A DNA stretch of 44,053 nt from the IMG/VR virus record IMGVR_UViG_3300005841_000047, positions 1 to 44,053 of that record; one strand, written 5' to 3'. Below, piece after piece: positions 3,441 to 36,934 of the stretch. The DNA comes from a virus. Each line of letters begins with the position of its first letter. Positions within the stretch are counted from its first letter, which is position 1. The notes beneath the pieces were generated by a model, which had not been told where the DNA came from, made no database searches, and saw only the letters and a program-made list of their open reading frames with translations. The translations under genes were made by a program, and so were the position numbers.

Positions 3441-3468
3441 GATTTGCGATTTGCGATTTACGATTTAC
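3441..3468. repeat. Heptamer array GATTTRC x4
   Basis: Four contiguous 7-bp units (GATTTGC, GATTTGC, GATTTAC, GATTTAC) fill the gap between the stop of the zinc/HTH gene and the start of the tail tip gene. They also encode the last residues of the former. Confidence 0.85.
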
Positions 3469-3886
3469 GCGCCGGGTACCAGCTCGAGCAGCCGCCGCGC
3501 GTGCGATGGGCAATGAGCACTCCATGCGCTTCTAGCTTGGTGAGCCAGTAGCGCACCTGGCGTTGAGGCTTCTGGAGCTTGCGGGCGATAGTGGTTGTGA
3601 GCGCACCGACGAATTGTTCAGGCTTGCCCTTCCACCAGTCCCCAGAACACACGTTTGCCATGTACGCCGTGTTGGTCTCCACGATTCCGCGCACGCAGTC
3701 CAACAGCCCAGGGATTGGCTCGCGAACGTAGAACTCCTCACTGCCGCATTTCGGGCAGACGCCTTTTGCCGCGCCTGGTCCCAGCTCGCGATGCGGTACT
3801 TGGAGCAGTTGCTCCTGACGGCCTTCCCAGCCACACTTGCGGGTGTGACAGCAGATCCACATTTCCGCTTCGCCTACAGCATTCAT
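3458..3886 (-). CDS. Small zinc-ribbon and winged-helix-like protein
   Basis: The 142-residue product has an N-terminal Cys pair region (WICCHTRKCGW) followed by CPKC about 30 residues later, so one zinc-ribbon is plausible. The C-terminal half (KPQRQVRYWLTKLEAHGVL) looks like a winged helix. The start is chosen at 3886 because ATGA overlaps the stop of the upstream gene and a GGGGAAG ribosome site precedes it; an upstream in-frame extension is shadow sequence. It lies between tail assembly genes and the tip protein, an unexpected place for a DNA-binding-like protein. It may be a late regulator or a tail assembly factor; the function is unknown. Confidence 0.65.
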   Translation of the reverse strand: MNAVGEAEMWICCHTRKCGWEGRQEQLLQVPHRELGPGAAKGVCPKCGSEEFYVREPIPGLLDCVRGIVETNTAYMANVCSGDWWKGKPEQFVGALTTTIARKLQKPQRQVRYWLTKLEAHGVLIAHRTRGGCSSWYPARKS

Positions 3887-4083
3887 TTCTTCCCCGGCCT
3901 TTCGTCGGGCGCTTCGCGCGTGAATTGATTGTAGGCCGGACTGATCCAGCGCAGGGCGACCTTGAACTCGCCGCAGCCCCAGGGGACCACCGTGCCGGCT
4001 TCGTTGGTGGAGAGGTCGGCTTCGCCGATGTTGGCTGGATCGGGATCGTCCGCCGGCAGATTGGGTTTGGCGGATTTGCTCAC
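3883..4083 (-). CDS. Small hypothetical tail-module protein
   Basis: This 66-residue acidic protein starts at a GTG whose GTGA overlaps the stop of the preceding gene, and it ends in an ATGA overlap with the next. This tight coupling is the main evidence that it is real. It has no transmembrane segment or recognised motif. Tail operons of Mu-like siphophages often carry such small genes before the tip protein, but no role can be assigned. Confidence 0.6.
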   Translation of the reverse strand: MSKSAKPNLPADDPDPANIGEADLSTNEAGTVVPWGCGEFKVALRWISPAYNQFTREAPDERPGKK

Positions 4084-4301
4084 GCTTTGTCGGTGGCTGG
4101 TTGCAGGTTGTGGGTTGGGGGTTGTTTGGCAGCGATTGTTGCAGCCCGAATCGTGGCGAGTAGATCCCGGAATTTGGGTAGGTCCATATCACCCATTGCA
4201 TCAAGCCGACGCGCAAGTGTTGCCCAGGCGACGGCAGCTTGCTGTGGCGTGAGAAGTGACGCCCGCCTGCCCATGAAGTAGCACTTGTCGCGGCGCGTCA
4301 T
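4080..4301 (-). CDS. Small hypothetical helical protein
   Basis: The 73-residue product starts MTRRDKCYFMG and has a helical centre (QQAAVAWATLARRLDAMG). Its C-terminal 15 residues (PPTHNLQPATDKA) are encoded by a heptamer array of xxGGTTG units at 4097-4124, so the tail of the protein is repeat-derived. The start follows the upstream stop by a few bases and the stop is coupled by GTGA to the next gene. Function unknown. Confidence 0.55.
   Translation of the reverse strand: MTRRDKCYFMGRRASLLTPQQAAVAWATLARRLDAMGDMDLPKFRDLLATIRAATIAAKQPPTHNLQPATDKA
4097..4124. repeat. Heptamer array (xxGGTTG) x4 inside a coding end
   Basis: Units CTGGTTG, CAGGTTG, TGGGTTG, GGGGTTG are contiguous and encode the C-terminus of the minus-strand gene ending at 4080. 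Confidence 0.8.
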
Positions 4302-4306
4302 GATGA

Positions 4307-4810
4307 TCAGATAAACTCCCCGTCCAGCGGCCGCCAGACGGCCGCAAGGCGGCTGGACCAGGTTGCATCGGACAAGCTGCTGATGATCGTGCCCATGCCG
4401 TCCAGGGCGTGGATAAACATGCCTCCAGTAAGGGCGCACCCCATGTGATGGATCGTGCGGTAGATCTGGAAGCCGAGCAGATCGCCGGGGACCGGGCCAC
4501 TGATCTCCAGGCGCTCAAATTCCGGGCGAGTGTCCAGGAACTCCAGCATTAGACTTCTGCGGCTGAACCGGGCGTGGGCCATGGGCACCTCCGGTACCGG
4601 TACGTCGCAGAAGCCGGCGCCGCGGTAGATCTCGGACACAAGCTTCTGGCAACTCACACCACCGCGCGGGCCTGGCATGTTGGAATTTGGGAAGAACGGC
4701 GTGCCGAGCCAGCGTTTTGCCTCGCGTTCGAGGGCTGTAATGCGATCGGAGGTGTTGAACCATGTTGAAGGCCTATCACCTATTGCCTCTTGCCCATCGC
4801 CTGTGTTCAT
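4307..4810 (-). CDS. NlpC/P60-family tail assembly peptidase
   Basis: The 167-residue product carries the NlpC/P60 signature. There is a catalytic Cys54 in GGVSCQKLV after a LGTPF motif, a His122 in IHHMG and a second His134 in FIHA, consistent with the Cys-His-polar triad. Such proteins (lambda K-like) act in tail assembly or as tail-borne murein hydrolases. The start at 4810 overlaps the upstream stop (ATGA) and has a GGGAGGG ribosome site. The first 15 or so residues (MNTGDGQEAIGDRPS) are encoded by a heptamer array, so the N-terminus is a repeat-derived extension ahead of the domain. It is the only recognisable murein-directed enzyme in the window. Confidence 0.85.
   Translation of the reverse strand: MNTGDGQEAIGDRPSTWFNTSDRITALEREAKRWLGTPFFPNSNMPGPRGGVSCQKLVSEIYRGAGFCDVPVPEVPMAHARFSRRSLMLEFLDTRPEFERLEISGPVPGDLLGFQIYRTIHHMGCALTGGMFIHALDGMGTIISSLSDATWSSRLAAVWRPLDGEFI
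4772..4806. repeat. Heptamer array CCTATYR-type x5 at a start codon
   Basis: Units CCTATCA, CCTATTG, CCTCTTG, CCCATCG, CCTGTG run right up to the start codon of the NlpC/P60 gene and are translated in frame as its N-terminus. Confidence 0.85.
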
Positions 4811-7963: not shown

Positions 7964-9666
7964 GATGCAGGTGCGGTCGAACTTTCCAGCCATTGAACCC
8001 TGGCCTTCAGCAGACGAACCGGAGTGTTGGTCCAGGTGTCTGACGCATTTGAACCCTGGCGCGAGATGTCGAACCAGATGCTATCGCCAACCGCAGGCGA
8101 GCCGCTGACCGTGATCGCGGGCGACGTGAACACCTGCATCACTTGTCCGGACGTGGCGAGACCGTTGGTGACAAAAACCTGTGTCCCGAAGATCGCGTTC
8201 GTTGCCGCCTCGCCCGGCGCGAGCGACCCCGCTTTAGCGCCCCACACGAGGTTCGTGATACCCGACGAATTAGTCGAATCGCACACCACATACAGCTTCA
8301 GCTTGACGATGCCTACGTCCCACACGTCGGGAAACGTGAGACTGAATCGCGTGCTCTGCGTCGCGGCATCAGCGAACGTCCATGAGTCGCTGAGCGTGTC
8401 GTTGACTGTGTTCGTGTAGGTGCCAGTAGTCGCGGCCGTCGGCCCGGCAAACATCGCGCCAGCCTCGATGGCCTGATCGCGGTAGATGCCAACGAAGCTG
8501 GGAGCTGAGTAGGAAGGATCAGCCCCCGCGCCGCCTGATGTGAGCGGGTAACCAGCAGTCCCAGGCGATAGGATTGCCCAGCCGCTTGCGCCCCGGTAAA
8601 GAACCGACCCGCGTGTGCTGCCTATCCAGTCCAACAATTGACTTCCAGTGATTTCCTCAGCATCGCCGGAGCCTGCGGTATTCCGACCAAGAGCGCGTTG
8701 TGTGGCGCTGACGTTTTGTAGCTTTGCGTAGGTTACCGAATCGTTCGCGATTGTGGTCGCCACTGCCCCGGCTGAGGTCGTCACGTCGCCTGTCAGCGCA
8801 GGCATCCGTGCCGCAGCGATCGTACCGCTGCCGATCTTGGCGGCGTCAAGCGACGGGATGTCAGCGGCGACGAGGGCGCGTGGCGCGAGCCCACCAGCCG
8901 TGCCATCCGGCGTGGCGAGCACCTGGTTGGCGGTTTGGCCACCGGCCGCGGTGACTACAAAGGAGCCGGTTGTGGTCACTGGACTGCCGCTGACCGATAG
9001 CCAGGAGGGCACTGTTAGCCCCACGCTGGTCACGGAGCCGGCGCCTGTGCCCAGGGCCACCCAGTTTGTGCCGTCGTAGAAATTGAGCGCGCCGCTGGTC
9101 GTGTTCAAAATAACCAGGCCGTTGGTTGCCGTGTAGGCGTCGCGTTGGGTCTGGGTGAGGCGTGGGATGCGCAGGCTCAGGCTGAAGATGCCGTTGCTGG
9201 CGGAAAGCGTAAGCAGGTTGGTGATCGAGTTGGTGTAACCGTTCAGGTCCATCGGCAGGTACGGGAACTTGAATTGGTAGAGCAACGTCTGCGTGATCAG
9301 AGCGGTGAGCTGATAGGTATTCGTGTTGTTCGGCACGGAGATCAGGAACCGATCGGCGTTGTCGATCTGGATGCGGTAATCGCCTTGCTGAAGCGTGATG
9401 GTGAACGTGCCGTTGGCTGCGCAGGTTTTGTTGATGACCTGGCCGCTGAGAAGGTTGGTGGTCAGCACCTGCGGATTGGACAGGGGCACGAAGCTGAGCC
9501 GGGCGGCGTAGCCTGTGCCGGTGGCGTTTTGGATTGTGCCGGTGACAGTCGCCGCATGCGCGGAGGAGATGGCAGATAGGAGATAGAAGATGAGGGCTGC
9601 TTTACGCGAATTTGCGCTAATTCGCGCCAATTCGCGTAAAACTCTTCCTGTTGCTTTTCGCTTCAT
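7957..9666 (-). CDS. Tail fibre-like protein with repeat-derived signal-peptide-like N-terminus
   Basis: The 569-residue protein has typical fibre composition, rich in Gly, Thr, Ser and Ala. A central region from about 200 to 380 matches fibre repeats (VTSVGLTVPSWLSVSGSPVT, ALTGDVTTSAGAVATTI, LGRNTAGSGDAEEI), and the C-terminal region is predicted beta-rich. The start at 9666 overlaps the tape measure stop (ATGA). Residues 7-39 are encoded by two repeat arrays (9566-9593 and 9602-9640). They read as a charged segment, then LIFYLLSAISSAHA ending in an AxA-type cleavage site, so repeat DNA has created an apparent export signal. The fibre or receptor-binding role is inferred from composition and position after the tape measure. 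Confidence 0.75.
   Translation of the reverse strand: MKRKATGRVLRELARISANSRKAALIFYLLSAISSAHAATVTGTIQNATGTGYAARLSFVPLSNPQVLTTNLLSGQVINKTCAANGTFTITLQQGDYRIQIDNADRFLISVPNNTNTYQLTALITQTLLYQFKFPYLPMDLNGYTNSITNLLTLSASNGIFSLSLRIPRLTQTQRDAYTATNGLVILNTTSGALNFYDGTNWVALGTGAGSVTSVGLTVPSWLSVSGSPVTTTGSFVVTAAGGQTANQVLATPDGTAGGLAPRALVAADIPSLDAAKIGSGTIAAARMPALTGDVTTSAGAVATTIANDSVTYAKLQNVSATQRALGRNTAGSGDAEEITGSQLLDWIGSTRGSVLYRGASGWAILSPGTAGYPLTSGGAGADPSYSAPSFVGIYRDQAIEAGAMFAGPTAATTGTYTNTVNDTLSDSWTFADAATQSTRFSLTFPDVWDVGIVKLKLYVVCDSTNSSGITNLVWGAKAGSLAPGEAATNAIFGTQVFVTNGLATSGQVMQVFTSPAITVSGSPAVGDSIWFDISRQGSNASDTWTNTPVRLLKARVQWLESSTAPASW
9566..9640. repeat. Two in-frame tandem arrays at the 5' end of the tail fibre gene
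   Basis: The first array has four 7-bp units (GAGATGG, CAGATAG, GAGATAG, AAGATGA, 9566-9593). The second (9602-9640) is built from AATTCGCGCC-like units of about 9-10 bp, also found at 31250-31296. Both are translated in the fibre gene. Confidence 0.8.
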
Positions 9667-11681
9667 GATCTTCCGGTGATGTTGTGGAGGTTGGCTTTGA
9701 CGACGTCCACGATGACGCTCTGGCCTTCCTGGTTTCTGAGCCAGTCGGCCATCTTCGCCTGGTCGTTGAACACGGCCACGGTCACTTGCTGATTGTTCTT
9801 GATGGACGGCGCCGCGGAACTGACGGCGGCGGCTTGTTGGACGGGCAGGCCGGCGTTGAGCGCGCTCACGAACCCTTCACCAACGTTGCTCAGGGCTTGC
9901 GCGTTGAGGATCGCTTCCTGGCCGCGTTCGTTGACGCGGATGAGTTGTTCGCCGCCACGCACGACGCCGCCTTCGGCGAACGCGCCAAAGGCAGAGGCCA
10001 GTGCCAGCGCAAGGATCGCCGCAAGCGCGACAGCGCCGATGATTGCGGCCGCGCCGTAGGACGCGGTGGACGCCAGCGCGGCGCCGGGCGCTTCGGCGGC
10101 CGCGCGTTGTACGGCCTGGACCTGTTGCTCGGTGTGGAACAGTTTCTGTAGTGCGCGCACGATCGTCATTTGGACGATCCACTGCACGACGACGCGGATC
10201 AGTTCGGTGATGATAGCGCGGCCAACTTGTTGGAATACCTGCGCCCAGGTCTTTGTCATATAGATGGCATCGACGATTGCGTCAGTCACACCGTTGACGC
10301 CGGTCTGGATGCTGTTCGTGAGAGCATCGGCAGCGTTGCGGGCGAAGCTGCCCCAGGAATCCGCGAGGGACTGAAGGTTGTCCCGCATCCGGGTCATGAA
10401 GGCCGTTTCGGAATCAATGTCGTGCAGTTTTTGCATGATCTCGGCGCGCTGCTTTTGCATCGCTAACACGTCGGCCTGGATGGCCAGATATTCCTGCGAC
10501 ACCAGCACGCCCTCGTCGGTGGCCACAAACTCGATTTGAGCGCGTTTGTTCAGTTCATCCTGGATGCGTTTGATGATTTGGAGCTGCTCCTGGTAACTGG
10601 CAACCAATCCGCGGTTCCGGGCCGTTTGGCTCGATGTGGAATCGCCTGCGATCCGGGCCGCGCGGGCCTGAGCGTCCGCGAGTAGTTTCTGCTGGGTCTC
10701 CAACATTGATCCGGCAGCCGGAGCGCCTTTCTCTCCGCGCGCTTTCCCATCCGCTTCCTCGACCTTTGAGTTGATGGAAGCAAACACTTCGTCCATCCGA
10801 TCAAGCGCCTCGGTGGCTGCCAGGGCGCCAACGCGCCAGGCTTCAAACGGGTCGCCTGTTTCCGCCAGTGTGCCGGCAAATTGGCCCAGGAACGCGCCGA
10901 TGGCTTCAAAGCTGCCGGCGACGGCCGTCGCGGCGGTGGCCAGCACTTTGAATACAACGACGATGGTTTGGATGATCGGCTTGAAGTTGTCCGAGCGTTT
11001 GGCGAACTCGATGAACCATTCCAACATTTTGTTCAGGGCGGGCAAAAGTTCCTTCGCGATGGTGTTGAAGAAGCCGCGGGCCACCAAGCCGACGCGATGC
11101 TGGTTGTCATTGAATTGTTCGGCGCTTTTGGCGAACGCCGGGCCGACGACCGCGCCTAATTCCTCCGCTTCCCGCACTTGCTCCCGGATTGCCTCACTGC
11201 CTTTGTTCAGGAACGGAATCATGTTCTGGCCAGCGCGGCCGAACCGATCAACGGCCAAGGAAACTTTCTCGGCGCCGTCAGGCATGCGAGCGAATTGATC
11301 CGCCAATTCCAAAAGCACGTCGGTTGTGTCGCGGCCGGCCTGGCCGGTCTTGACCATCCATTCGGAGAGCCCTTTGAGCCCGATCTGCAATTCCTGGAGC
11401 GAGACATCATCTGCGGCAGCCACAGTGCCCAGCCCGCTCAGTTCCTGAATTGCTGTGCCAGTCTTCTGGGCGAGTTTGCCGATGGCATCGGCCGCTTCGA
11501 TTGAGCGACGTGTGAACTCGACGATGGCGCCGACTGAAAGAGCAGCCACCAGTTTGCCTTTGAGTTCCTCAACGAACTTGCCGGCGCCCCCAAGTTTTTC
11601 CAGCGCATGGCCGACGCCTTCCAGCGCTTTGACCGCTTGCTGGTTCTCTCCGCTGATGACGAGTTGGACTAAGCCGGGCAT
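9663..11681 (-). CDS. Tail tape measure protein
   Basis: The 672-residue protein has the expected build. It has an N-terminal alpha-helical region (AVKALEGVGHALEKLGGAG), a long coiled-coil and Ala/Gln/Glu-rich centre, and a hydrophobic block around 570-600 (AAIIGAVALAAILALALASA) followed by FAEGGVVRGGEQLIRVNE, the classic C-terminal tape measure motif. The start is placed at 11681 (MPGLVQLVISG), just 3 bases after the upstream stop. It follows the frameshifted chaperone, the conserved order in siphoviruses. At this size the tail would be around 100 nm by the usual length rule, which is an inference. Confidence 0.88.
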   Translation of the reverse strand: MPGLVQLVISGENQQAVKALEGVGHALEKLGGAGKFVEELKGKLVAALSVGAIVEFTRRSIEAADAIGKLAQKTGTAIQELSGLGTVAAADDVSLQELQIGLKGLSEWMVKTGQAGRDTTDVLLELADQFARMPDGAEKVSLAVDRFGRAGQNMIPFLNKGSEAIREQVREAEELGAVVGPAFAKSAEQFNDNQHRVGLVARGFFNTIAKELLPALNKMLEWFIEFAKRSDNFKPIIQTIVVVFKVLATAATAVAGSFEAIGAFLGQFAGTLAETGDPFEAWRVGALAATEALDRMDEVFASINSKVEEADGKARGEKGAPAAGSMLETQQKLLADAQARAARIAGDSTSSQTARNRGLVASYQEQLQIIKRIQDELNKRAQIEFVATDEGVLVSQEYLAIQADVLAMQKQRAEIMQKLHDIDSETAFMTRMRDNLQSLADSWGSFARNAADALTNSIQTGVNGVTDAIVDAIYMTKTWAQVFQQVGRAIITELIRVVVQWIVQMTIVRALQKLFHTEQQVQAVQRAAAEAPGAALASTASYGAAAIIGAVALAAILALALASAFGAFAEGGVVRGGEQLIRVNERGQEAILNAQALSNVGEGFVSALNAGLPVQQAAAVSSAAPSIKNNQQVTVAVFNDQAKMADWLRNQEGQSVIVDVVKANLHNITGRS

Positions 11682-11683
11682 GG

Positions 11684-11965
11684 TCAGATTTCCGTCACTT
11701 GCAGCTTGGCGATGCGCCAGCCGTTGGCTTCCCAGTAGTTCCCTAGCTTCTTGGTCAGGAGTTCGGCGACGTTCGCTTTGGTGAGATCGAGGTAAGTCCA
11801 GATCGCTCCGGCGCCGTATGGACTGATGGCGCACCACCAGACTTCGTTAAGAGGCTTTGGAGAAGGCGATAGGCGATGGGCGATAGGCGATGGGCGGCGG
11901 CTTGACCTCTTGCCTATGGCCTGTTGCCTATCGCCTGCGCGGCGCGCTTTTTTCGAGGCGCTCAC
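11684..11965 (-). CDS. Small tail-module protein with repeat-encoded N-terminus
   Basis: The 93-residue product begins at a GTG just after the end of the chaperone zero frame. Residues 10-36 are encoded by back-to-back heptamer arrays (11865-11937), and no alternative ATG or GTG lies between them and the domain LNEVWWCAISPYGAGAIWTY. The conserved-looking part is therefore residues 39-93, and the first third is probably non-functional filler. It sits between chaperone and tape measure, where some phages have a small accessory tail protein. Function unknown. Confidence 0.6.
   Translation of the reverse strand: MSASKKARRAGDRQQAIGKRSSRRPSPIAHRLSPSPKPLNEVWWCAISPYGAGAIWTYLDLTKANVAELLTKKLGNYWEANGWRIAKLQVTEI
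11865..11937. repeat. Opposed heptamer arrays forming a potential hairpin
   Basis: GGCGATA/GGCGATG units (11865-11892) face CCTCTTG/CCTATGG/CCTGTTG/CCTATCG units (11906-11937), which are the same family on the other strand. The transcript could fold over the chaperone end and the start of the next gene. Confidence 0.8.
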
Positions 11966-12493
11966 AGGCTAGGTCACAGAAGAACTTGAGTTGGGCAAAG
12001 GTGAGTCCACGCGTGTCCGCATAGGTCCATCCCTGCCAGATGAGGAAATCGAGCGCTTGGCCGAGAGCGTGGTCGCCATCGGCGAACTGAAAGCCCCCTG
12101 CACGCGCTCGGCCACGCTTTTTCCCAGACGCACGAACTCCTCGTTGAACACGACTTCCAACGACGTATCCAACAACATTAGAAATTCTGTGCTGCTGCGC
12201 TGTTGCAGCCATGCACCTTCCACCTTTATCTCGTTGAGCGCACACGTCTGGCTGACCAGGTATTCGGCTAGCTCAGTGGAGTTGGAGACCAATGACGGCA
12301 ACTGGTCCAGGAATTTGGAACCGATCGCCGCGGCGTCCTGGGCCTTGGCCGCGCCGACGGCGCCACCGATCAGGCCGCTGACCTGGTGCGAGAGTTTCTC
12401 CAGGAATTGTTTCATGACCGGCCAGGGCAGATCGCGCACGATGACTTCAATGCCGCCGACCTGGACGGTCTTTTGGGGGTTGAGAATGGTCAT
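11928..12493 (-). CDS. Tail assembly chaperone, -1 frameshift fusion (GT-type)
   Basis: A -1 shift at 12119-12125 joins the first 125 residues of the zero-frame protein to 63 residues of the -1 frame, giving about 188 residues. The -1 segment (DFLIWQGWTYADTRGLTFAQ and a Cys-containing helix) looks like real protein, while the zero frame after the site is Ser-rich and low in structure. Position directly before the tape measure, two overlapping frames and a canonical slippery heptamer together match the lambda G/GT arrangement. The longer product would bind the tape measure during tail assembly. Confidence 0.8.
11969..12493 (-). CDS. Tail assembly chaperone, zero-frame product (G-type)
   Basis: The 174-residue product starts MTILNPQKTVQVGGIEVIV, a pattern usual for tail chaperones and related tube-adjacent proteins, and is mostly helical up to residue 125. 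The start is fixed by a 24-bp gap of heptamers after the upstream gene. It ends with SSSSVT, in a stretch where the alternative frame carries the conserved-looking sequence. It is expected to be made in excess over the frameshift product. Confidence 0.8.
   Translation of the reverse strand: MTILNPQKTVQVGGIEVIVRDLPWPVMKQFLEKLSHQVSGLIGGAVGAAKAQDAAAIGSKFLDQLPSLVSNSTELAEYLVSQTCALNEIKVEGAWLQQRSSTEFLMLLDTSLEVVFNEEFVRLGKSVAERVQGAFSSPMATTLSAKRSISSSGRDGPMRTRVDSPLPNSSSSVT
12119..12125 (-). other. Programmed -1 ribosomal frameshift site GGGAAAA
   Basis: On the minus strand the heptamer G_GGA_AAA is aligned to the zero frame as X_XXY_YYZ: the GGA codon begins 369 bases (123 codons) after the ATG. Lambda uses GGGAAAG at the same place in its G/T genes. 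After the shift the -1 frame is open for 63 residues. Confidence 0.75.
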
Positions 12494-12520
12494 AGGCGAT
12501 GGGCGATAGGTGATGGGTCA
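12493..12520. repeat. Heptamer array TAGGCGA/TGGGCGA x4
   Basis: Four 7-bp units span from the start codon of the chaperone to the stop of the preceding gene, so the whole intercistronic gap is repeat. Confidence 0.85.
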
Positions 12521-13327: not shown

Positions 13328-13371
13328 AGTAATCAGTAATCAGTGGTCCAGTAGTCAGTGGTCAGTGGTCA
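13328..13371. repeat. Heptamer array AGTAATC/AGTGGTC x6
   Basis: Units AGTAATC, AGTAATC, AGTGGTC(C), AGTAGTC, AGTGGTC, AGTGGTC fill the gap between the tail tube stop and the next start. A similar unit occurs at 30549-30572. Confidence 0.85.
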
Positions 13372-13917: not shown

Positions 13918-13924
13918 TAGATTT

Positions 13925-13950
13925 GTTGGTTGTTAGTTGTTAGTGGTCAG
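13925..13950. repeat. Heptamer array GTTGGTT/GTTAGTT x3-4
   Basis: Units GTTGGTT, GTTAGTT, GTTAGTG, GTCAGTT lie in the gap after the small helical gene and run into its last codons. Confidence 0.75.
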
Positions 13951-15205: not shown

Positions 15206-15213
15206 GGGATTTA

Positions 15214-15283: not shown

Positions 15284-15288
15284 ACGAT

Positions 15289-25379: not shown

Positions 25380-25381
25380 TA

Positions 25382-25818: not shown

Positions 25819-25858
25819 CAAGAGGAATCGAAAATCGAAAATCGAAAATCTGAAATTG
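25746..25858. repeat. Three heptamer families around one start codon
   Basis: GGTTGAT units (25746-25760), CAAACAC x4 (25791-25818, including the start codon) and CGAAAAT x3 with variants (25829-25858) follow each other. The first two are translated in the holin-like gene. Confidence 0.85.
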
Positions 25859-26325: not shown

Positions 26326-26517
26326 TCATTCCTCGAAAAATTTCAGCGGCTTCAGCCGCGCGATCACTTCGCCTTTGTCCATCACCACGACGTTGCCTTC
26401 CGCATCGATGGCAGGCGTGTCGCCGATCAGCCCGGCGTAACGGCCGGCCGTCTCGCGGTCGTAGCCTTGGCTCATGATCTCAGCCACCAATTCTTTGAAT
26501 GCTTCCAGGTCCATCAT
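26326..26517 (-). CDS. Small acidic protein
   Basis: The 63-residue protein (MMDLEAFKELVAEIMSQGYD and a hairpin GNVVVMDKGEVIARLKPL) is coupled to the preceding stop by ATGA overlap. No family recognised. Its position next to the metallopeptidase-like head protein suggests a partner or an immunity-like role, which is a guess. Confidence 0.55.
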   Translation of the reverse strand: MMDLEAFKELVAEIMSQGYDRETAGRYAGLIGDTPAIDAEGNVVVMDKGEVIARLKPLKFFEE

Positions 26518-27989: not shown

Positions 27990-28537
27990 TGTTGGTTGTC
28001 GGTTGCGGGTGGTGGGTTGTCCGTTGTTAGTGGCACGGGCGTCTCCGCCCGTGTGTTCATCTGAATCGCGTCGCACCGGGCGAGAGCTTCCGTTTGCTCG
28101 GCTTCTGAGCGCATGTATTTCGCCGCTGCCCGGAGGTGCCAGTCGCAATTGAGGCCGAACTCGACGGTGCAACGCTTGCCGTCTTTCATCGTGCGCACTG
28201 TGATCTCGCCACAATCCATGCAGATGGATACGTGGTGCTCCTCCTGGAAGCCGGGGCCACTGCCTCGCATGCCACTGATCGTCTCGGCGCGATGATGCTT
28301 GCAAGCGGACGGGCTGATCATCTTTTGATTGAACCAGTCCGCAGGCTGGCCGACTTGCAACGCAAAGCCTGTGGCATAGAGATCAGTCACTGGCCCGACA
28401 CTTTCAACGTACACCTGGGCAGCATGCCGAGGGGCGTCAGCGGCGATGATGTGATGACTGCGCTGCCCGCGCCAGTTTGCCACGACGCGATAGAGCCGCT
28501 TGCCCATTAGATCGAGAGGTTTCCAGACGATGTTCAT
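27986..28537 (-). CDS. Hypothetical protein with a possible metal site
   Basis: The 183-residue protein has a beta-rich N-terminus (MGKRLYRVVANWRGQRSHHI), a Cys/His cluster (CKHHRAE, CMDCGE) and a helical region with HLRAAAKYMRSEAEQTE. The C-terminal 20 residues (PLTTDNPPPATDNQQ) are encoded by heptamers of the ACAACCC type. It overlaps the next gene (GTGA). Function unknown. Confidence 0.55.
   Translation of the reverse strand: MNIVWKPLDLMGKRLYRVVANWRGQRSHHIIAADAPRHAAQVYVESVGPVTDLYATGFALQVGQPADWFNQKMISPSACKHHRAETISGMRGSGPGFQEEHHVSICMDCGEITVRTMKDGKRCTVEFGLNCDWHLRAAAKYMRSEAEQTEALARCDAIQMNTRAETPVPLTTDNPPPATDNQQ
28000..28025. repeat. Degenerate heptamer array of the GGTTGYC type
   Basis: Units such as GGTTGTC, GGTTGCG, GGTGGTG, GGTTGTC encode the C-terminus of the minus-strand gene that ends at 27986. 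Confidence 0.65.
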
Positions 28538-29999: not shown

Positions 30000-30548
30000 A
30001 AAAGGCGCGTTGGCCGGGTCCAGTTGAAGCTTCCGCCGCCGCCGGCTTTCGAGCGTGACCCGGAGCTGCCTGAGCTGCCCGATCTCCAGGTCTTCCCAAA
30101 ACGGCGAGGTGTAATCATCGGGGAATTTGCCTTTGCAGACCTGATCGATGTATGCGAACGGCGCCATCCGTTTGATCCCGACGATCAGCACGCGTCGCTC
30201 GTCCCGGCCGGGATCTTCCCAATTCATGATTGCGTCCAGGTCGTTGGGCTCGATCAATAGCTTGAACAAGGTGAACACGCGCGAGCACTCGCGCCTGGGC
30301 TCCAGATCGATATGGCCTTTGTCCCGGCCGATGGCGTGAATGTGGCAGCCGTGCCGCAGATCATCGGCAGTGACACTGCGGTGGTTCTGCCGCGCGCGAG
30401 TCTCCGCGCACTGCCACACGGCGACGTGATGTTTGCTGGTGTCGCGCTGGGCATCAGGCGCGACGCGGCCTTTTAGGAAACGCCAGTCGTTGACGTGACA
30501 GACGCGGGACCAAAGGCGCCAGTAGTAGGTTGCTTGTTTTTCGGTCAT
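29997..30548 (-). CDS. Hypothetical middle-region protein
   Basis: The 183-residue protein starts MTEKQATYYWRLWSRVCHVN and has VTADDLRHGCHIHAIGRDKG in the centre and a helical end (EIGQLRQLRVTLESRRRRK). It seems conserved in character (Trp-, His- and Cys-containing alpha-helical protein) but no family was recognised. A GemA/gp16-type regulator was considered from the C-terminal pattern and the position, without support elsewhere. Confidence 0.6.
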   Translation of the reverse strand: MTEKQATYYWRLWSRVCHVNDWRFLKGRVAPDAQRDTSKHHVAVWQCAETRARQNHRSVTADDLRHGCHIHAIGRDKGHIDLEPRRECSRVFTLFKLLIEPNDLDAIMNWEDPGRDERRVLIVGIKRMAPFAYIDQVCKGKFPDDYTSPFWEDLEIGQLRQLRVTLESRRRRKLQLDPANAPF

Positions 30549-30572
30549 TAGTAATCAGTAGTAATCAGTCAG
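30549..30572. repeat. Heptamer array AGTAATC type
   Basis: AGTAATC, AGTAGTAATC and AGTCAGTGGTCC fill the 34-bp gap between the DnaA-like gene stop and the next start. It is related to the array at 13328-13371. Confidence 0.75.
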
Positions 30573-30582: not shown

Positions 30583-31098
30583 TCAGTCGTGGCGGTAATG
30601 TGGGGCGGGCATCTTGCCTGCCTGAGGCAGGTTGGACAAACATGCACGCGTCTTCTGTTCGAGCTTCCTTACCAGCGCGGCGAACCGCGGTTCGGTTTCC
30701 ATTCGGTTCTTCACGGCGTGGATTGAGTGAATCATGGTGCCATGATCTCTCCCTCCCATCATTTGGCCCATTGATGAGAGACTCGCCGCCGAGCAACAAC
30801 GTAGGAGCCAGACGGTGACGTGACGCGGCCAGGTGAACTGCTCTTCCCTGCTACGCCCGAAAACTTCAGTTTCCGAAACTTTGAACTCCTCGCAGGTCAA
30901 TTCGAGGATCTTCACTAGCGCCTCGTCCATCGCCGCAGCGATCGATTCCATGAATTCGACTCGGTCCTTGAGCCGATGCAATCGCTTCAATTTCCGCAGG
31001 CGCTCTTCCATCGCGGCGATCTCCGCGTCAATATCGATGCCATTGCCGCTTGCGTGTCCGGCTCCGTTGTTGTTGCTCGCTGTGGTTGGCTCATTCAT
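30583..31098 (-). CDS. DnaA domain IV-like DNA-binding protein
   Basis: From the ATG at 31098 (GGAGGA ribosome site) the product is 171 residues. It has a disordered N-terminus, a coiled region (EERLRKLKRLHRLKDRV), and a DnaA domain IV-type segment: CEEFKVSETEVFGRSREEQF, then PRHVTVWLLRCCSAASLSSM and the signature GGRDHGTMIHSI. Domain IV binds the DnaA box, with GGRDHxTVxHA contacting DNA. The AAA+ domain is absent. The last 15 residues come from a host-type palindromic repeat. It may bind host oriC-type sites or regulate phage replication. Confidence 0.8.
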   Translation of the reverse strand: MNEPTTASNNNGAGHASGNGIDIDAEIAAMEERLRKLKRLHRLKDRVEFMESIAAAMDEALVKILELTCEEFKVSETEVFGRSREEQFTWPRHVTVWLLRCCSAASLSSMGQMMGGRDHGTMIHSIHAVKNRMETEPRFAALVRKLEQKTRACLSNLPQAGKMPAPHYRHD

Positions 31099-31111: not shown

Positions 31112-31324
31112 TCATAGGTGGTCCTCGATCGCGCCGAGGGCGTCGCGCAGCTTGTCCTCGCACCAGGTAAAGGCATCGGCAAGGAGCGCCACCGCGCAGC
31201 CAAACAGGCCGATGTAAATGAAAAGCGTCAGCCAGAAAACCAGGCAAAGCTGCCTTACGCCAATTCGCGCCAATTCGCGCCAATTCGCGTAAACTGCTTT
31301 GGTTGCTTTGTCGGTTGGGTTCAT
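31112..31324 (-). CDS. Small membrane protein with repeat-encoded N-terminus
   Basis: The 70-residue protein has one TM segment (LCLVFWLTLFIYIGLFGCAV) and a short helical end. Residues 10-25 (VYANWRELARIGVRQ) are encoded by AATTGGCGCG-type repeats, the same family as in the tail fibre gene. The start has an ATGA overlap and a GGAGGGA ribosome site. Function unknown. Confidence 0.55.
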   Translation of the reverse strand: MNPTDKATKAVYANWRELARIGVRQLCLVFWLTLFIYIGLFGCAVALLADAFTWCEDKLRDALGAIEDHL

Positions 31325-31857: not shown

Positions 31858-31882
31858 TGGTGGCCCGACCGGCTAGGTCTCA
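31858..31882 (-). repeat. GACCTAGCCGGTCGGGCC-type intercistronic element, copy 2
   Basis: Identical to the copy at 29975-29999. It begins right at the stop codon of the Gam-like gene and lies upstream of the polymerase-like gene. Confidence 0.85.
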
Positions 31883-32425
31883 CGCTGCCTCCTTCGCCAC
31901 GGCTTCCTTGACCGCCTTGCCCATGTCCACCTTGGCGGCGACCACGGAGAAGTTATCGTTGGGCACGCGATCGATGCGGAGTTTTTTGAGCGTGGCATCA
32001 TCCAGTTTTTCGAGCGCTTCGATGTTCAGCTCCTCATGCGCCCGCACGTAGTCCACGCGCTTGAACTCAGGATTTTCCTGGGCGAGCTTGTCGAGCAGCA
32101 ACAGGGTGACTTCTTCGTTCTTCACCTCCAGCTTGATCGATGCGTGGAATTTGACGGTGCCGTACGGGGTCTTGATGCTGCGCCGCTTTTCGGAAAACCA
32201 ATCGGGATGGCTCAGGGCGATGACTTCCAGCGCGGTTTCAGTTTGAGCGAGCGTGTGCTGGAGTTGGGCATACTCGGTTTTGTGCGCGTCGATCAATTCG
32301 AGCAATGACCCGTTGGCCGATGCTTCGAGTTCGTCCAAGCGATTGGAGGCTTCCGAATAAACGGCCAACAGATTGACCATGTTCGTGAAGTCTTCAGACG
32401 TGGGTTGTGTGGTTTTTGCAGGCAT
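31880..32425 (-). CDS. gam: Host-nuclease inhibitor Gam-like protein
   Basis: From the ATG at 32425 the product is 181 residues. The long N-terminal helical part and the C-terminal pattern (PYGTVKFHAS, LLLLDKLAQENPEFKRVDYV, HEELNIEALEKLDDATLKKL, ending RIDRVPNDNFSV) match Mu Gam, a Ku-like protein that binds and protects DNA ends. Location after the transposase and ATPase genes is the Mu order. It is separated from the upstream gene by a repeat-rich 218-bp gap. Confidence 0.85.
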   Translation of the reverse strand: MPAKTTQPTSEDFTNMVNLLAVYSEASNRLDELEASANGSLLELIDAHKTEYAQLQHTLAQTETALEVIALSHPDWFSEKRRSIKTPYGTVKFHASIKLEVKNEEVTLLLLDKLAQENPEFKRVDYVRAHEELNIEALEKLDDATLKKLRIDRVPNDNFSVVAAKVDMGKAVKEAVAKEAA

Positions 32426-32643
32426 AGCTTTTGTTGGTTTAGACACGGATTTCACGGATGAACACGGAGGGAACAGCGCGCGGCGGTCCTGGCCGGAGTC
32501 GTATGACACCGTTATTTTCCGGCCAGGTCCAGCCCCGCGCGCTGAGTGGTTGGTCATAGACACGAATTTCACGGATTGACCACGGATGGCCGACAGGCAG
32601 GCCGTCACCCTGGTCGGTGATAATCTGTGTAATCCGTGTCTCA
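32426..32643. repeat. Repeat-filled gap upstream of gam
   Basis: No gene. It contains a half-element (GACACGGATTTCACGGATGA at 32442), the ACGGTG/CATAC/GACTCCGGCC box (32487-32528) and the full composite element copy 3 (32559-32640). The box could hold a promoter for the middle genes but no clear -35/-10 pair was seen. Confidence 0.6.
32559..32640. repeat. Composite palindromic intercistronic element, copy 3
   Basis: Ends GACACGAATTTCACGGAT and GTGTAATCCGTGTC, inner GACAGGCAGGCCGTC, and GTCGGTGATAATCTG. It lies immediately next to the stop codon of the zinc-ribbon gene at 32644. Confidence 0.85.
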
Positions 32644-32841
32644 TCATTGCCCTTCTTTCTTCTGCTGCGCCTCAAGCAGGGCGATGGCGTGCGCTTCGCG
32701 ACTCCAGCGATCGACGATGCCGTAATAAACATCGTTGCAGCTCGGACACTTGATCTTGACCTCAACGCAGTCGATTTGGCGGAACCCAATCTCGGCGTTC
32801 CGGCCGGCATCGAATGGCGCACCGCATTTCTCGCATCTCAT
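32644..32841 (-). CDS. Small zinc-ribbon protein
   Basis: The 65-residue protein has two Cys pairs, MRCEKCGAPF and IKCPSCNDVY, about 27 residues apart, forming one zinc ribbon. A charged helical tail follows. The start is an ATGA overlap with the upstream gene. Function unknown. Confidence 0.65.
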   Translation of the reverse strand: MRCEKCGAPFDAGRNAEIGFRQIDCVEVKIKCPSCNDVYYGIVDRWSREAHAIALLEAQQKKEGQ

Positions 32842-33067: not shown

Positions 33068-34207
33068 CTAGTCCTCTTCAATGCACGCTTTGATGTGCCC
33101 GATAGTCAGCGGCGCCTTCTTCCGCTCAGCCGCCACCTTGGCGCTCTGCAACACCTCGAACAGCGCCCGGATGCGGCCGCGTTCCTTCGAGATTTTCATC
33201 AGCTCTTCCAAGTGCCGCTCCGCGTCGCGCAGCCCGAAGGCGGTGGCGATCTTGAGCACGTCTTCTTCGGGCGGGTAATCCGGCAGCCGGAGGAAATTCC
33301 GGCGCCCGCCCGCGCGCCCCTCGAATTGCTCGAAGTAACCTTTGATGAACTGCTCGACGAAGAGCCGCTCGCCGGTGGGTGTCATGCTCAGGATGATGGT
33401 GCATTTGCTCTCGTCCTGAAGCCGGCGCAGGAAGGCGAATGGCGGCTGGTTGTGCCCGCGTTTCTCGTTGTACATGTCCTGGGCGTTATCCACGATGATG
33501 CAGGACCGGTCATTGACCTGGGTGAATACCTTAATCCGCTTGGCGGAGTTGCCATAGGTGAGCGCCACGCCGTAGCGCAACGCCAGGTGCGCGATCAGTT
33601 CGGTGAGTGACCCGTTCTCGGGCGCTTCCACGTGCGCCACCAGGCCGAAGGGATGCCGCGCTGCGAACTCGCGAAAGGCGGCGCTTTTGCCCGAGCCGGT
33701 CTCGCCCACGATCACACCGAATCTGTTTACCCGATCGACGGCCATCCGCGTCTCGATGTAATCAAACTCCGCGCGCGCCACGCTCGTTTCGATGAACGGA
33801 ATCTTGCCCGCCTGCGCCCGCAGGCGCGCGTCCTGGCGCAAGGCGCTGATGGCCCGAAGCAGTTTGCTCTTGCTGAGGATCGGCGAGGGCAGCGGGTTGC
33901 CCTCCGCGTCAGTGTTCCAGCGGCCGCGCAGGATTTTGCTCCAATTGGTTTTGTCGATGTCGATGCCGAGCTTGGCCGCCCGGCTGGCGAGCACTTCCAT
34001 GCTGCGGCCGCAATCTTCGCGAAGGTAGCCGCCCAACCAAAGGACCGGCTCGCGCAATTCATCGTCGTAACCTTCGATCACCTGGCCCAGCCCGTGCAGG
34101 TCCAGGCGCATTGGCCCTAGATGATGTTGGCTGACGCGCTCGTCGTTGTCGCTTGTGGGTTGGGACGTGTGGGTCCGTGCTCCCAGGTCTATCACTGTTG
34201 TGCTCAT
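33068..34207 (-). CDS. MuB-like transposition ATPase
   Basis: The 379-residue AAA+ protein has Walker A GETGSGKS at about 165-172 in a GVIVGETGSGKSAAF strand-loop, Walker B CIIVDNAQD near 238, and a sensor-type LSMTPTGERLF. The N-terminal 120 residues are helical, as in MuB, which binds target DNA there. It lies just after the transposase with start ATG directly behind the stop, and a GGAGG site. In Mu, B captures target DNA, stimulates the transposase and gives target immunity. Confidence 0.87.
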   Translation of the reverse strand: MSTTVIDLGARTHTSQPTSDNDERVSQHHLGPMRLDLHGLGQVIEGYDDELREPVLWLGGYLREDCGRSMEVLASRAAKLGIDIDKTNWSKILRGRWNTDAEGNPLPSPILSKSKLLRAISALRQDARLRAQAGKIPFIETSVARAEFDYIETRMAVDRVNRFGVIVGETGSGKSAAFREFAARHPFGLVAHVEAPENGSLTELIAHLALRYGVALTYGNSAKRIKVFTQVNDRSCIIVDNAQDMYNEKRGHNQPPFAFLRRLQDESKCTIILSMTPTGERLFVEQFIKGYFEQFEGRAGGRRNFLRLPDYPPEEDVLKIATAFGLRDAERHLEELMKISKERGRIRALFEVLQSAKVAAERKKAPLTIGHIKACIEED

Positions 34208-36424
34208 TTATTCCTCCGTATGGTTGTTGGTTGTCTGACTGGCTCGCGTGGCGAGCACTTGTTCCTTCAGGCGCGCCTGGCGCCGTGCCCATTGATCAGG
34301 TGTTGGAGCTGCCAGGCTGGTGGCCCGGCCGTTAGGCCGGACCGCCTGAAATTTCGTGGTTGTGGTTCCATTGTCCCGTGGTCCCGTGGTCCCGTGGTCC
34401 CGTGGTCCTGTGTTGTCCGTGGCCACGCGCACGACAGCGCCCTGACCATCCCGCGCTTCACTGACGCTGGCTTTGACCTGACCATCCAGCCCCAGAGCCC
34501 GTGTCTCGCGCCGGCAGGCCGCGCGCGCCAGGCGCAGGGATTGATTACTCCGCTGCGCCGCTTCCTCGCTGTAACCGAGGCTGGCCCGCGCGTAGGGGGT
34601 CAAATCCCCCACGAGCCCCGCCCGGCAAATGACTTCTCCGGGACGGAACCCGTGGTAGTCCTCCAGCGACACGATGGTCGCTTCGCATTGCTCAGCGGCC
34701 GGATCAAAATAGAGCTGCACTTTGCGCCCGTTCCAGCGCCAGAGATCTTCAGTCGCGAAGTAGAACGGGACTTTCGGGCCATCGTCCAGGAGCGGTAACC
34801 CGCCGCCGACCGAGCCGCCGGACACGGTCCATTGCCGCACGTAGGGCGCGAAGAGAAATTCCATCTCCGCCGGCAGCGGCGTCCAGGGGCGCTCGGCGGC
34901 ATGTTCTTTGAACCGGAGTTCCGGCACCCAATGGCCGTAAATCTTGGATTGGATGGTGTCCCGGTTGTGCATGGCCAGGGCGGCGTCAAGGGCCTTGATG
35001 ATCTGGGCCAGGCTCGGGAAATGGTCGCGCGGATCGGCCCGGCCGGCTCTGCACTTTTCAACGAGCCGATTTTCTTCCTCCATCTCGCCGCGGTACCGGC
35101 CCATTTGCGCCTGGCCGCCTGGCCCGTTGAGCACGCTCAGATAGGTCCAGAGTTTGTTGAACGCGCCTTCGATGTGCGGCTTTTGGTTGGGCTGATAGAC
35201 GGTTTGCAAGCCCACGCCGAGTGTCCTCAGCAGGTTCACCACGTTGTTTGCTTCCCAGGAGCCGCGCTCGAACCGGAATTCGTCAGGCAAGCCGTGCGCA
35301 CGCGCCACCAGGTGGATCAAGCTGCGGATGTCTTCTTCGCGATAGCTGCCGCGCGGCCGGCAGACGAGTTGATAACCCGCCATGAAATGGCTCCAGCCTG
35401 CCTCCATCGCCGGCAGGAATTGCCAGCGCCCTATGCGCACGCCGAACTTGTCACTGCACCGGTCCCCGCCCATCGGCCAGGGCAGCCAGCCGACGAAATT
35501 CACCGTGCCGTCATCGCTCTCGATCACCCGCCGCCGATCATTCTTGTCGCCGAAGAACGCGCCGACGGTACCGGCGAATTGTGAGGCGGCGTTCTTCGGC
35601 TGGCGGCGTTGCTGGGTGTGAGCTTTGGTGACACGTTCGAGCACGCGTTTGATGAACCCAGGCACGCGGCTGCTGCACTCCAGCGCGGCCAGGATTTTCC
35701 CGCGCACTTCGTCGCGTGTGTCCGGGTGATGAGCGAGAAATTTCGCGGTCGTCCGCATCGAGCCGCTCCACTTGTCTTTGTTCGAGCGTTGATAGAGGTC
35801 CTTGACCACGCGTTCTTCCGCCTCGTTCAATTCCAGGGCGCGGCGCCGGCCGCTCTTGTGCCGGTCCGGAATGAGGGACCCGCGTGCAGCCAGGCGCGCG
35901 CGCCAGCGCGAGTAGGTGGCAGCGCTGATCCCGGCCTGCTCGCGCGCATCGCCGATCGGGCAGCCGGCGGCGACCAGGGCGTCGATCCGGGCGAGGATGG
36001 CCGACCGGCGCAGCGCCTCAGTCAGTTCATTTGTGCTGCGCCCTTCGATGGGTAGCGCGCCCGACTCGGGCGCTCCGGTCGGCGACTCGCCGACCGGCTC
36101 CACACTGGAAATGGGCTGGGGGTTGGCGCCAACCCCCAAGCCCGACCCTTCAGGACACTCTGCCGTTCCCGAAGTTTCCCCCGCTTTCGCGAGTGCATCC
36201 GGGGCACCTACCGGCAGACCTTGGGGTAATGTGGTGACGGCTGGAACGGTGGCGACGGCCTCCTTGGGCTTGGTTCCAATACAATTTGCCTGGGATTCGC
36301 AGCCGTCAAAATCCGTGCTATGTTCAGGAGCAAGAAAGGACTCCGATGCACAGGGGCTAATTTCTGTCAGCGCAGGGCCGGCTTCCGGTTGGCCCTGCGT
36401 TGCTGTTTGGAGGTCAGGTTTCAT
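34208..36424 (-). CDS. MuA-like DDE transposase
   Basis: From the ATG at 36424 the protein is 738 residues. It has a repeat-rich linker (about 1-140), an HTH (ALVAAGCPIGDAREQAGISA, TYSRWRARL), helical DNA-binding regions and an RNase H-like core: VIESDDGTVNFVGW, DKFGVRIGRWQFLPAM, then FRFERGSWEANNVVN and QKPHIEGAFNKLW. First acid Asp (DDGT) and last Glu (HIEGAF) are present. At the middle position the usual DxG is ERG, a Glu (see findings). A beta-barrel-type region with WTVSGGSVGGGLPLLDDGP follows. The C-terminus holds repeat-encoded GPRDHGTT units. It cuts and joins the phage ends. Confidence 0.88.
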   Translation of the reverse strand: MKPDLQTATQGQPEAGPALTEISPCASESFLAPEHSTDFDGCESQANCIGTKPKEAVATVPAVTTLPQGLPVGAPDALAKAGETSGTAECPEGSGLGVGANPQPISSVEPVGESPTGAPESGALPIEGRSTNELTEALRRSAILARIDALVAAGCPIGDAREQAGISAATYSRWRARLAARGSLIPDRHKSGRRRALELNEAEERVVKDLYQRSNKDKWSGSMRTTAKFLAHHPDTRDEVRGKILAALECSSRVPGFIKRVLERVTKAHTQQRRQPKNAASQFAGTVGAFFGDKNDRRRVIESDDGTVNFVGWLPWPMGGDRCSDKFGVRIGRWQFLPAMEAGWSHFMAGYQLVCRPRGSYREEDIRSLIHLVARAHGLPDEFRFERGSWEANNVVNLLRTLGVGLQTVYQPNQKPHIEGAFNKLWTYLSVLNGPGGQAQMGRYRGEMEEENRLVEKCRAGRADPRDHFPSLAQIIKALDAALAMHNRDTIQSKIYGHWVPELRFKEHAAERPWTPLPAEMEFLFAPYVRQWTVSGGSVGGGLPLLDDGPKVPFYFATEDLWRWNGRKVQLYFDPAAEQCEATIVSLEDYHGFRPGEVICRAGLVGDLTPYARASLGYSEEAAQRSNQSLRLARAACRRETRALGLDGQVKASVSEARDGQGAVVRVATDNTGPRDHGTTGPRDNGTTTTKFQAVRPNGRATSLAAPTPDQWARRQARLKEQVLATRASQTTNNHTEE
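34373..34412. repeat. Octamer array GTCCCGTG x4-5 inside the transposase gene
   Basis: Four GTCCCGTG units and a GTCCTGTG variant are translated in frame as GPRDHGTT-type repeats in the transposase C-terminal region. Confidence 0.9.
36048..36100. repeat. GESPTGAPESG-coding repeat, one of two copies
   Basis: A palindrome-rich segment (GGCGAGTCGCCGACCGGAG with GCCCGAGTCGGGCGC) encodes GESPTGAPESGALP in the transposase. A related copy at 36485-36540 lies in the gene upstream. These look like a host-type palindromic family. Confidence 0.7.
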
Positions 36425-36629
36425 GGGTTCCTGTGGGTGGCACAGGCGTCTCGCCTGTGAGTATCGGTTTGTCCTGAGCCTCCGTCTCCGTTTGCTGGGT
36501 GGCACGCCCGACTCGGGCGTTCTGCTCGGCGACTCGCCGAGCAGCTTGCTCAGCCACGAGCTGGCGGATACGACGCCGCCCGCGCTCGTAACCGCGCGCC
36601 AATCCACGTGCTGACAGTCCGCCGTTCAT
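36414..36629 (-). CDS. Small basic protein with repeat-encoded C-terminus
   Basis: The 71-residue protein (MNGGLSARGLARGYERGRRR, QLVAEQAARRVAEQNARVGR) is a basic helix and may bind DNA. Its C-terminus (KPILTGETPVPPTGTHET) is encoded by ACAGGCGAGACGCCTGT, a palindromic repeat. ATGA overlap with the upstream gene, 11-bp overlap with the transposase start. Function unknown. Confidence 0.55.
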   Translation of the reverse strand: MNGGLSARGLARGYERGRRRIRQLVAEQAARRVAEQNARVGRATQQTETEAQDKPILTGETPVPPTGTHET

Positions 36630-36934
36630 TGCACCGATTGTGTGTGGTGGGTTGCGGGTTGTGAGTTGGCCGTCCCGACCTGGTGGCCCGGCCGGCCAGG
36701 TCCGAGGTCCGCGCAAAATTTGTAGGCACCTAAAATCTCCAACTCCGCTTGAATCTCCGCCGCTGAACATCCGGCGTGCTGCAATGCCTCAATGAAATGG
36801 CGCCGGCACAGCCCGTGACTCGCGGCCGGGCTTATGACGGGCCAGACGGCTTGGGACCTGGCCGGTGGGGCCATTAGTTCTTCACACGCCGCACAGACGC
36901 GCCCGATGGGTGATGGATCGATGTCAGGTGTCAT
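36626..36934 (-). CDS. Small Cys/His-containing protein
   Basis: The 102-residue protein has CAACEEL near the start and GLCRRHFIEALQHAGC later, which could bind zinc. The C-terminal 25 residues (HQVGTANSQPATHHTQSVQ and before) are encoded by GGTTG-type heptamers and a CGGCCGGGCCACC element. Coupled at both ends by ATGA. Function unknown. Confidence 0.55.
   Translation of the reverse strand: MTPDIDPSPIGRVCAACEELMAPPARSQAVWPVISPAASHGLCRRHFIEALQHAGCSAAEIQAELEILGAYKFCADLGPGRPGHQVGTANSQPATHHTQSVQ
36645..36670. repeat. Heptamer array GGGTTGY x3
   Basis: GGGTTGC, GGGTTGT and GAGTTGG units with GTGGT neighbours lie at the 3' end of the small Cys/His gene. Confidence 0.7.

Follow-up and report, generated by a model that had tools for sequence, protein, structure and literature searches.

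Short degenerate tandem arrays have been noted at some twenty gene junctions of one phage genome, which raises the question of how such sequences come to lie at so many borders and what they do there. The window analysed is the whole of record IMGVR_UViG_3300005841_000047 (44,053 bases), a Mu-like transposable phage whose named genes, including the tail genes, all lie on the minus strand:

34208-36607, minus strand: MuA-like transposase (phrog_310, 2.2e-24)
33068-34207, minus strand: MuB-type protein
31880-32647, minus strand: Gam
26514-28304, minus strand: minor head protein
19149-20951, minus strand: portal protein, with the start at 20951 inferred from homology
16032-16970, minus strand: major head protein (phrog_1005, 3.2e-60)
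9663-11837, minus strand: tape measure

Two sister phages were compared with the window, namely S1 (G001, IMGVR_UViG_3300020005_000015; 94% identity in the head protein, 74% in the portal) and S2 (G002, IMGVR_UViG_3300005177_000001; portal 65% identical). The portal profile was positive in 19 of 387 genomes of Verrucomicrobiota, the sole phylum searched with it. MuA as a query found no relatives, peptide patterns of the portal gave no match in genome contigs, and the phage collection held only head proteins less than 60% identical.

Tandem Repeats Finder (score at least 30) reported a repeat on or next to 19 of the 20 sites named in the first-pass annotation, with 25746-25858 counted as three arrays; the remaining site, 4772, fell below the threshold and is visible by eye. 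A strict detector, based on self-match at lags 5-12 with a single cost for every mismatch, kept 14 of the 20; the six that it missed (4772, 9566, 12493, 20837, 25746 and 36645) consist of few or imperfect units. Further arrays lie beyond that list at 9601-9636, 18521-18548 and 31258-31289 (period 10) and at 14792-14831 (period 7). Computation shows that the arrays are real, since the window holds 18 strict arrays versus a mean of 0.45 and a maximum of 2 in 20 dinucleotide shuffles, and the corresponding counts are 46 versus a mean of 0.1 in S1 and 33 versus 0.5 in S2. A period of nearly always 7 bp had been proposed; it applies to 12 of the 18 strict arrays of the window, but periods of 8 (two arrays) and 10 (four) also occur. 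Period 7 accounts for 26 of 33 arrays in S2 and 16 of 46 in S1, where periods of 8, 9 and 10 are frequent. Distinct unit necklaces of periods 7-10 number 61 in the window, 62 in S1 and 68 in S2. The claim that each locus has its own unit was too strong, because GATAGGC/GATGGGC and GACCACT/GACCACG units each recur at several window junctions. The fraction of transitions among unit-to-unit changes was 0.58, 0.45 and 0.34, and 0.28 at four-fold sites; the changes carry no single mutational signature, and a first impression of transition-only variation between units is false by these measurements. The arrays of the window are as follows:

3441-3469, minus strand: AAATCGC/AAATCGT array, period 7, 4 nt upstream of the ATG of gene 296-3436
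4092-4124, minus strand: ACAACCC/TGCAACC-type array with period 7, lying 8 nt upstream of a GTG start
4772-4802, minus strand: degenerate AGGCGATGGGC/AGGCAAT array adjoining an ATGA overlap, downstream, with start and frame ambiguous; below the threshold of both detectors and read from the sequence
9564-9636, minus strand: two arrays at one junction, of ATCTYCT type with period 7 (9564-9591) and of CGCGAATTRG with period 10 (9601-9636), the latter partly palindromic
11864-11937, minus strand: inverted cassette with arms AGGCGATAGGC and GCCTATCGCCCATCGCC, preceding the tape-measure gene
about 12494-12517, minus strand: CCTATCGCCCATCG array spanning the whole stop-to-ATG gap of genes 12518-13327 and 11969-12493
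about 13328-13371, minus strand: ACTGACC/ACTGATT array that takes up the entire gap from stop to ATG and also covers part of the stop codon upstream
13923-13953, minus strand: ACTAACA/ACTGACC array, 5 nt upstream of an ATG
14747-14831, minus strand: opposed array pair, with a GGCAATR arm (14792-14831) and a CCTATCG arm (14749-14779)
16969-17011, minus strand: AATCCACC array with period 8 that extends into the major head protein ATG
17398-17426, minus strand: AACCATC array, 4 nt upstream of the ATG of a scaffold-like gene
18521-18548, minus strand: CACGAATGGA array, period 10, across the start of gene 17436-18533
19157-19198, minus strand: ACCACGG array coding the portal C-terminus (RPRTTDHGPRTK), 4 nt upstream of the next ATG
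20841-20874, minus strand: CCTATCGCCTAACG array coding the portal N-terminal linker
25746-25856, minus strand: three arrays within gene 25465-26004
27990-28027, minus strand: ACAACCG array whose end directly abuts the GTG of gene 26514-27989
30545-30569, minus strand: ACTGATT/ACTACTGATT array running into an ATG
31258-31289, minus strand: palindromic CGCGAATTGG array, period 10, related to 9601-9636
34362-34412, minus strand: in-frame GGACCACG array with period 8, close to the C-terminus of MuA
36638-36668, minus strand: weak CACAACC array upstream of an ATG, outside the strict set

At 4307-4810 and 4515-4763 (minus strand), overlapping frames both appear to be supported, the first by a PHROG minor-tail match and the second, shorter one by alignment with an S1 frame.

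Placement was counted for periods 7-10 (18 of 18 arrays in the window, 43 of 46 in S1 and 29 of 33 in S2), with start codons set by homology among the three phages and not by arrays or experiment. Arrays lying mostly within stop-to-start gaps make up 10 of 18 in the window (random mean 1.33, maximum 6 in 2000 trials), 25 of 43 in S1 (random 2.64) and 8 of 29 in S2 (random 0.63), and two window gaps, at 12494-12517 and 13328-13368, consist of the array alone. The 3' end falls within 12 nt of a start for 8 of the 18 window arrays (random mean 0.44, maximum 5 in 5000 trials), for 9 in S1 (random 1.00) and for 10 in S2 (random 0.58). The suspected enrichment at stop/start junctions therefore holds against random placement in all three phages. 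The stronger wording, that almost all arrays lie at borders or just inside a gene end, is right in that placement exceeds chance, but the arrays at 34362-34412, 20841-20874 and 25746-25856 are inside genes. Closeness to a start is by itself no proof of function, because in a tight gap any filler ends near a start.

Arrays inside genes are read in frame, and they contradict a view of the arrays as junction-only features. The MuA tail contains in-frame arrays with different units in the window (residues 738-754) and in S1 (residues 692-712 of the open frame), and the portal N-terminal linker is coded by an array of CCTATCG type in the window and by CCATCAAT units in S1. The portal C-terminus of the window (RPRTTDHGPRTK) and two portal loops of S2 are likewise array-coded. 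In gene 25465-26004, a hydrophobic segment is coded by arrays in the window (25790-25821 and 25826-25856), S1 and S2, from three different repeats, and this gene is a natural case of coding sequence built from repeats. The presence of in-frame arrays within genes indicates that the junction enrichment is at least partly a matter of tolerance.

Comparison of the sisters at the same junctions revealed that the arrays are mostly not conserved. When the three phage pairs are pooled, so that one junction can count more than once, both phages carry an array at 22 orthologous-junction pairs, and 20 of these have no unit in common; in 32 other pairs one phage alone has an array, in 35 neither has, and 4 lack a start call. 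Upstream of the head protein, for example, the window carries AATCCACC units, S1 an AAGGCT/TTCAGC cassette plus AATCCACT, and S2 AATCGTA; the window and S1 at this junction form one of the two unit-sharing pairs. Across whole genomes there is some unit sharing within this family, with 8 shared units between the window and S1 versus 1.5 in shuffles, 12 versus 4.3 between the window and S2, and 4 versus 1.5 (largest shuffle 7) between S1 and S2.

Not all arrays stand alone; some are arms of inverted cassettes that occur at several junctions. Self-comparison revealed inverted elements of about 60-130 bp, with degenerate tandem arrays as arms, at several junctions per genome. Identity reaches 98% over 104 bp between two S1 cassettes, 30945-31048 and 33731-33834, and is about 70-91% in other same-direction pairs; three places in the window carry a CACGGATTCCACAGATT-type cassette (74-83%), and S2 has several copies of a GGGTCTC...CAGACCC cassette (76-82%). 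The S1 arm pattern matches 14 of 387 Verrucomicrobiota genomes versus 0 of 387 for a reversed-pattern control, and 8 of the 20 loci read by eye contain an inverted element of this kind whose loop differs; the cassettes are therefore not confined to phages. MITEs, REPINs and Rickettsia palindromic elements are dispersed inverted short elements, the Rickettsia ones being found in frame within genes too. The cassettes resemble them in being dispersed, inverted and intergenic, and inverted ends with presence at several sites are clearest in S1; unlike in those elements, the arms here are tandem arrays. Flanks read by eye gave no clear target duplication and no clean empty site, which leaves insertion a putative step. 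Drosophila foldback elements have inverted arms composed of short, degenerate subrepeats in tandem, with a loop of variable kind between the arms; the likeness is structural only, as size, host and mechanism differ. 'Purine arm first' was rejected as a signal of orientation, since inverted pairs look identical from either strand. As separate observations, a related small palindrome, AGTGGGACAGGC..GCCTGTC, lies within the loops of several cassettes (window, about 25380-25465; S1 locus L014, 28535-28638 and 30945-31048) and also upstream of other S1 starts away from cassettes, and S1 (locus L013) carries a direct duplication of about 100 bp (14887-14984 and 15188-15287, 85%) that does not resemble the arrays.

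Cyanobacterial STRR heptamers, of which several different ones occur in tandem per genome, had been suggested as a parallel. Part of the arrays here bear this out, being degenerate intergenic tandem heptamers with several different units per genome; the host group of STRR differs, being cyanobacteria, and no phage example of STRR was met in the literature searched. Three heptanucleotides of Calothrix are mentioned in PMC4692102, and the parts of that study consulted also describe GGGAATC in Xanthomonas and GGGGA(C/T)T in Nostoc, which form intergenic heptamer arrays as here, with the G-rich strand coding near stops and non-coding near starts; the polarity at starts is the same as in these phages. 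Unlike here, each of those genomes has one unit, most Xanthomonas GGGAATC arrays lie between the same genes in two species with varying length and sequence, and the repeats were absent from the plasmids examined in that study. The same source offers slippage as the origin of the heptamer excess known in bacterial genomes, and plain replication slippage in place, in which every array expands locally from a duplication that occurred by chance, without dispersal, would also suit the varying copy number of the arrays seen here. As a sole origin it is nevertheless doubtful: whole cassettes recur across junctions of one phage, at up to 98% over 104 bp, and simple slippage does not make inverted partner arrays. 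We infer that copying and replication slippage together may make the arrays.

At start codons, the arrays have a distinctive composition. An array ends within 12 nt of 27 of the 111 starts in the three phages, 22 of them ending 0-11 nt upstream and 5 overlapping the start, and on the coding strand C exceeds G in 26 of these 27 (nominal p 4e-7), whereas arrays away from starts are divided (C>G in 33, G>C in 25, 5 ties); p values are nominal because arrays with related units are not independent. The G fraction of the 35 nt upstream of the start is 0.11 for array-led genes versus 0.27 for the others. A Shine-Dalgarno match of at least 4 nt was found at 0 of 27 array-led starts versus 15 of 84 others (Fisher p 0.02). 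Since 69 of the 84 array-free genes also have no Shine-Dalgarno sequence, arrays are dispensable for such starts. Predicted folding (106 of 111 starts, omitting TTG starts and those close to the end of a record) gave an unpaired fraction at -20 to +5 of 0.73 for 27 array-led starts versus 0.55 for 79 others with an 80-nt fold (p 8e-7), and of 0.61 versus 0.49 with a 210-nt fold. This agrees with the report, as far as consulted, that a local absence of structure lets translation proceed without a ribosome site (PMC3121790). The earlier proposal that arrays replace ribosome sites or act as spacers is compatible with these data, in that the arrays occupy the ribosome-site position and have no Shine-Dalgarno match. 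A strict either-or between array and Shine-Dalgarno is contradicted by S1 20920 and S2 21877, where a cassette or array lies further upstream with a Shine-Dalgarno sequence between it and the start. In two further viral records, L143 (IMGVR_UViG_3300003465_000017) and L144 (IMGVR_UViG_3300040736_000109), a start is closely preceded by a GGCGATA array that a loop separates from an opposed one, each record having a GGAG-type ribosome site between the opposed array and the start codon. The array-poor relatives G194 and G267 have a G-poor leader at the head-protein start, by eye without a Shine-Dalgarno sequence, and the leader constraint may therefore predate the arrays. The composition bias at starts probably reflects selection for initiation.

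The closest bacterial counterparts of the arrays are the GGGAATC repeats described above and the TAACTGA direct repeats of Beggiatoaceae, cyanobacteria and Bacteroidetes (MacGregor 2015, PMC4679880). According to the portions of that report consulted, the TAACTGA repeats are 7-bp, mostly intergenic tandem units, present 2-6 times per array in the main genome, in forward orientation, ending near a start codon and mostly without a ribosome-binding site. Here, that orientation and absence of ribosome sites are confined to the 27 start-adjacent arrays (26 with C>G, none with Shine-Dalgarno). The TAACTGA system has one favoured unit, with related heptamers being rare, and is bacterial (PMC4679880), in contrast to a phage with many unrelated units, cassettes and in-gene arrays; no unit is favoured among the 61, 62 and 68 necklaces of the window, S1 and S2, and the window has no exact TAACTGA tandem pair, with one match at 2 mismatches. 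An RNA-binding protein of the S1, cold-shock or Csr type has been proposed for those repeats (PMC4679880, in the part consulted), and a host or phage protein of such a type might recognise the start-adjacent arrays here for sequence-specific post-transcriptional control. The similar placement of the TAACTGA repeats, the position of all 27 arrays at 0-11 nt before the start (22) or overlapping it (5), and the common composition of 26 of them speak for this. Such control is nonetheless quite unlikely, because a single protein would need to recognise the many different units present in one phage and, at the same gene, in its sisters, and because in-gene arrays have no such position relative to a start.

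Among phages, start-associated sequences (SAS/ESAS) of cluster K mycobacteriophages come nearest (PMC3203893). The sections of that work consulted describe phage-borne repeated sites, typically 3-7 bp before starts and almost without exception oriented alike, about half of the sites having inverted repeats upstream, which is a further likeness to the arrays here. SAS/ESAS differ in having one 13-bp consensus with AGGAG and, for ESAS, conservation at the same gene families (PMC3203893, same sections), whereas the present arrays have no Shine-Dalgarno sequence, consist of tandem units and are replaced between sisters, with 2 of 22 pairs sharing a unit. The SAS/ESAS consensus GGGATAGGAGCCC has one match in the window at 2 mismatches, where 1.25 are expected by chance. 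Heptamer arrays near starts in bacteria and repeated start-associated sites in phages are thus already known; as accounts of these arrays, TAACTGA and SAS/ESAS each fail on a defining feature, be it the favoured unit, the consensus or the conservation of sites at given genes. The top hits of searches in open-licence literature included no paper on a phage with numerous unrelated units that are replaced, which is weak evidence of novelty.

The inverted structures might act in the message itself, as hairpins of REP/BIME type that stabilise or process polycistronic mRNA. Upstream of starts, 22 such structures exceed shuffles (5 in the window, 14 in S1 and 3 in S2), some of them not made of arrays, and in S1 all but one of the 14 start no more than 50 nt from the preceding stop codon, a position that suits such hairpins. 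Their pairing makes this reading very unlikely: in mRNA sense, the 22 structures contain 611 Watson-Crick pairs, and among the mismatched ones A.C (62) far outnumbers G.U (15; other 57), whereas selection for RNA pairing would favour G.U; in addition, many start-adjacent arrays have no partner arm. That common border arrays serve as recombination linkers promoting module exchange between phages is scarcely credible, because, despite related arrays at several borders of one genome, a unit is common to just 2 of 22 sister pairs and could not guide exchange at matching places, and arrays occur within genes too.

Beyond the sisters, a phage with such arrays had been thought undescribed, and it is not unique: the window unit GACCACK in three copies is alone present at 77 stretches of IMG/VR contigs. 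The GACCACK viral loci contain 515 arrays in 677 kb, the loci having been chosen for holding at least one array. Of 94 GACCACK arrays in viral contigs, 30 have a start codon just 3', 16 have one at the other end on the other strand, and 4 have both (p 0.03). In Verrucomicrobiota, the same search gave 98 matches in 11 of 387 genomes, and it says little because the backwards control gave 201 matches in 4 of 387 genomes, 199 of them in two genomes; RACCAYS in three copies gave 10 matches in 3 of 15 genomes versus 9 in 1 of 15 for its backwards control. Pattern GGCGATRGGCGATRGGCGATRGG matches at least 118 stretches in records of many phyla, some within long open frames. Other units at these loci overlap those of the three phages in 27 cases versus 17.4 (sd 3.5; largest of 300 shuffles 27), only slightly above letter-shuffled units, and a universal unit vocabulary across phyla is not claimed.

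Among portal-bearing relatives, the more distant G403 (portal 47% identical) is array-rich and three others (43%, 43% and 41%) are not. Relatives without arrays exist: the portal-bearing stretches of G127, G026, G194, G267 and G156 have 0-1 arrays per 20 kb, and that of G276 has 1-3. In these counts, made with periods 7, 8 and 10, the end of G323 contig C23 with portal and terminase genes contains 22 arrays in 37.7 kb, versus 10 arrays in 280 kb over 14 other stretches of that genome, two of them on contig C23. The G323 stretches at the C25 end, C29 and C35 (L225-L228) are as dense in arrays as the prophage, and phage-specific enrichment in G323 was therefore dropped; they have no gene in common with the family of the window except for one weak 28% tblastn match (C25), and a PHROGs scan of 8 proteins from C25 and C29 matched no virion family. 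In C25, C29 and C35, several GGTGATCRGTGATC arrays lie behind stop codons, in coding-strand orientation.

Collectively, we lean, by a modest degree, towards the reading that the arrays are copied, rapidly replaced filler that is tolerated at borders and in linkers and screened at starts for Shine-Dalgarno-independent initiation. In this mechanism, short arrays and inverted array pairs (arm, loop, complementary arm) would arise or arrive repeatedly in this Mu-like lineage and would be copied among junctions with changing unit number. They would persist where extra DNA is tolerated, that is, in stop-to-start gaps, gene ends, in-frame linkers and a hydrophobic segment. Selection at starts would keep arrays with little folding whose coding strand is rich in C and A and poor in G; an array would thereby become the de facto leader, at which ribosomes may start without a Shine-Dalgarno sequence. 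An alternative scenario, which we regard as unlikely, is that a dedicated process, a prokaryotic counterpart of foldback-like elements, writes arrays and their inverted partners into tolerated phage and bacterial sites, where phages use them as leaders, linkers and hydrophobic segments; if true, this would mean that new coding sequence is made out of tandem repeats.

Leaders without a Shine-Dalgarno sequence are common, and what makes them work is an unsettled question, for which this lineage provides natural replicates, with one gene preceded by unrelated leaders that are alike only in low G and openness. It likewise offers coding sequence, in the form of a hydrophobic segment, linkers and tails, derived from different repeats at the same place in sisters, and it supplies comparisons for the origin of 7-10 bp arrays and their inverted partners.
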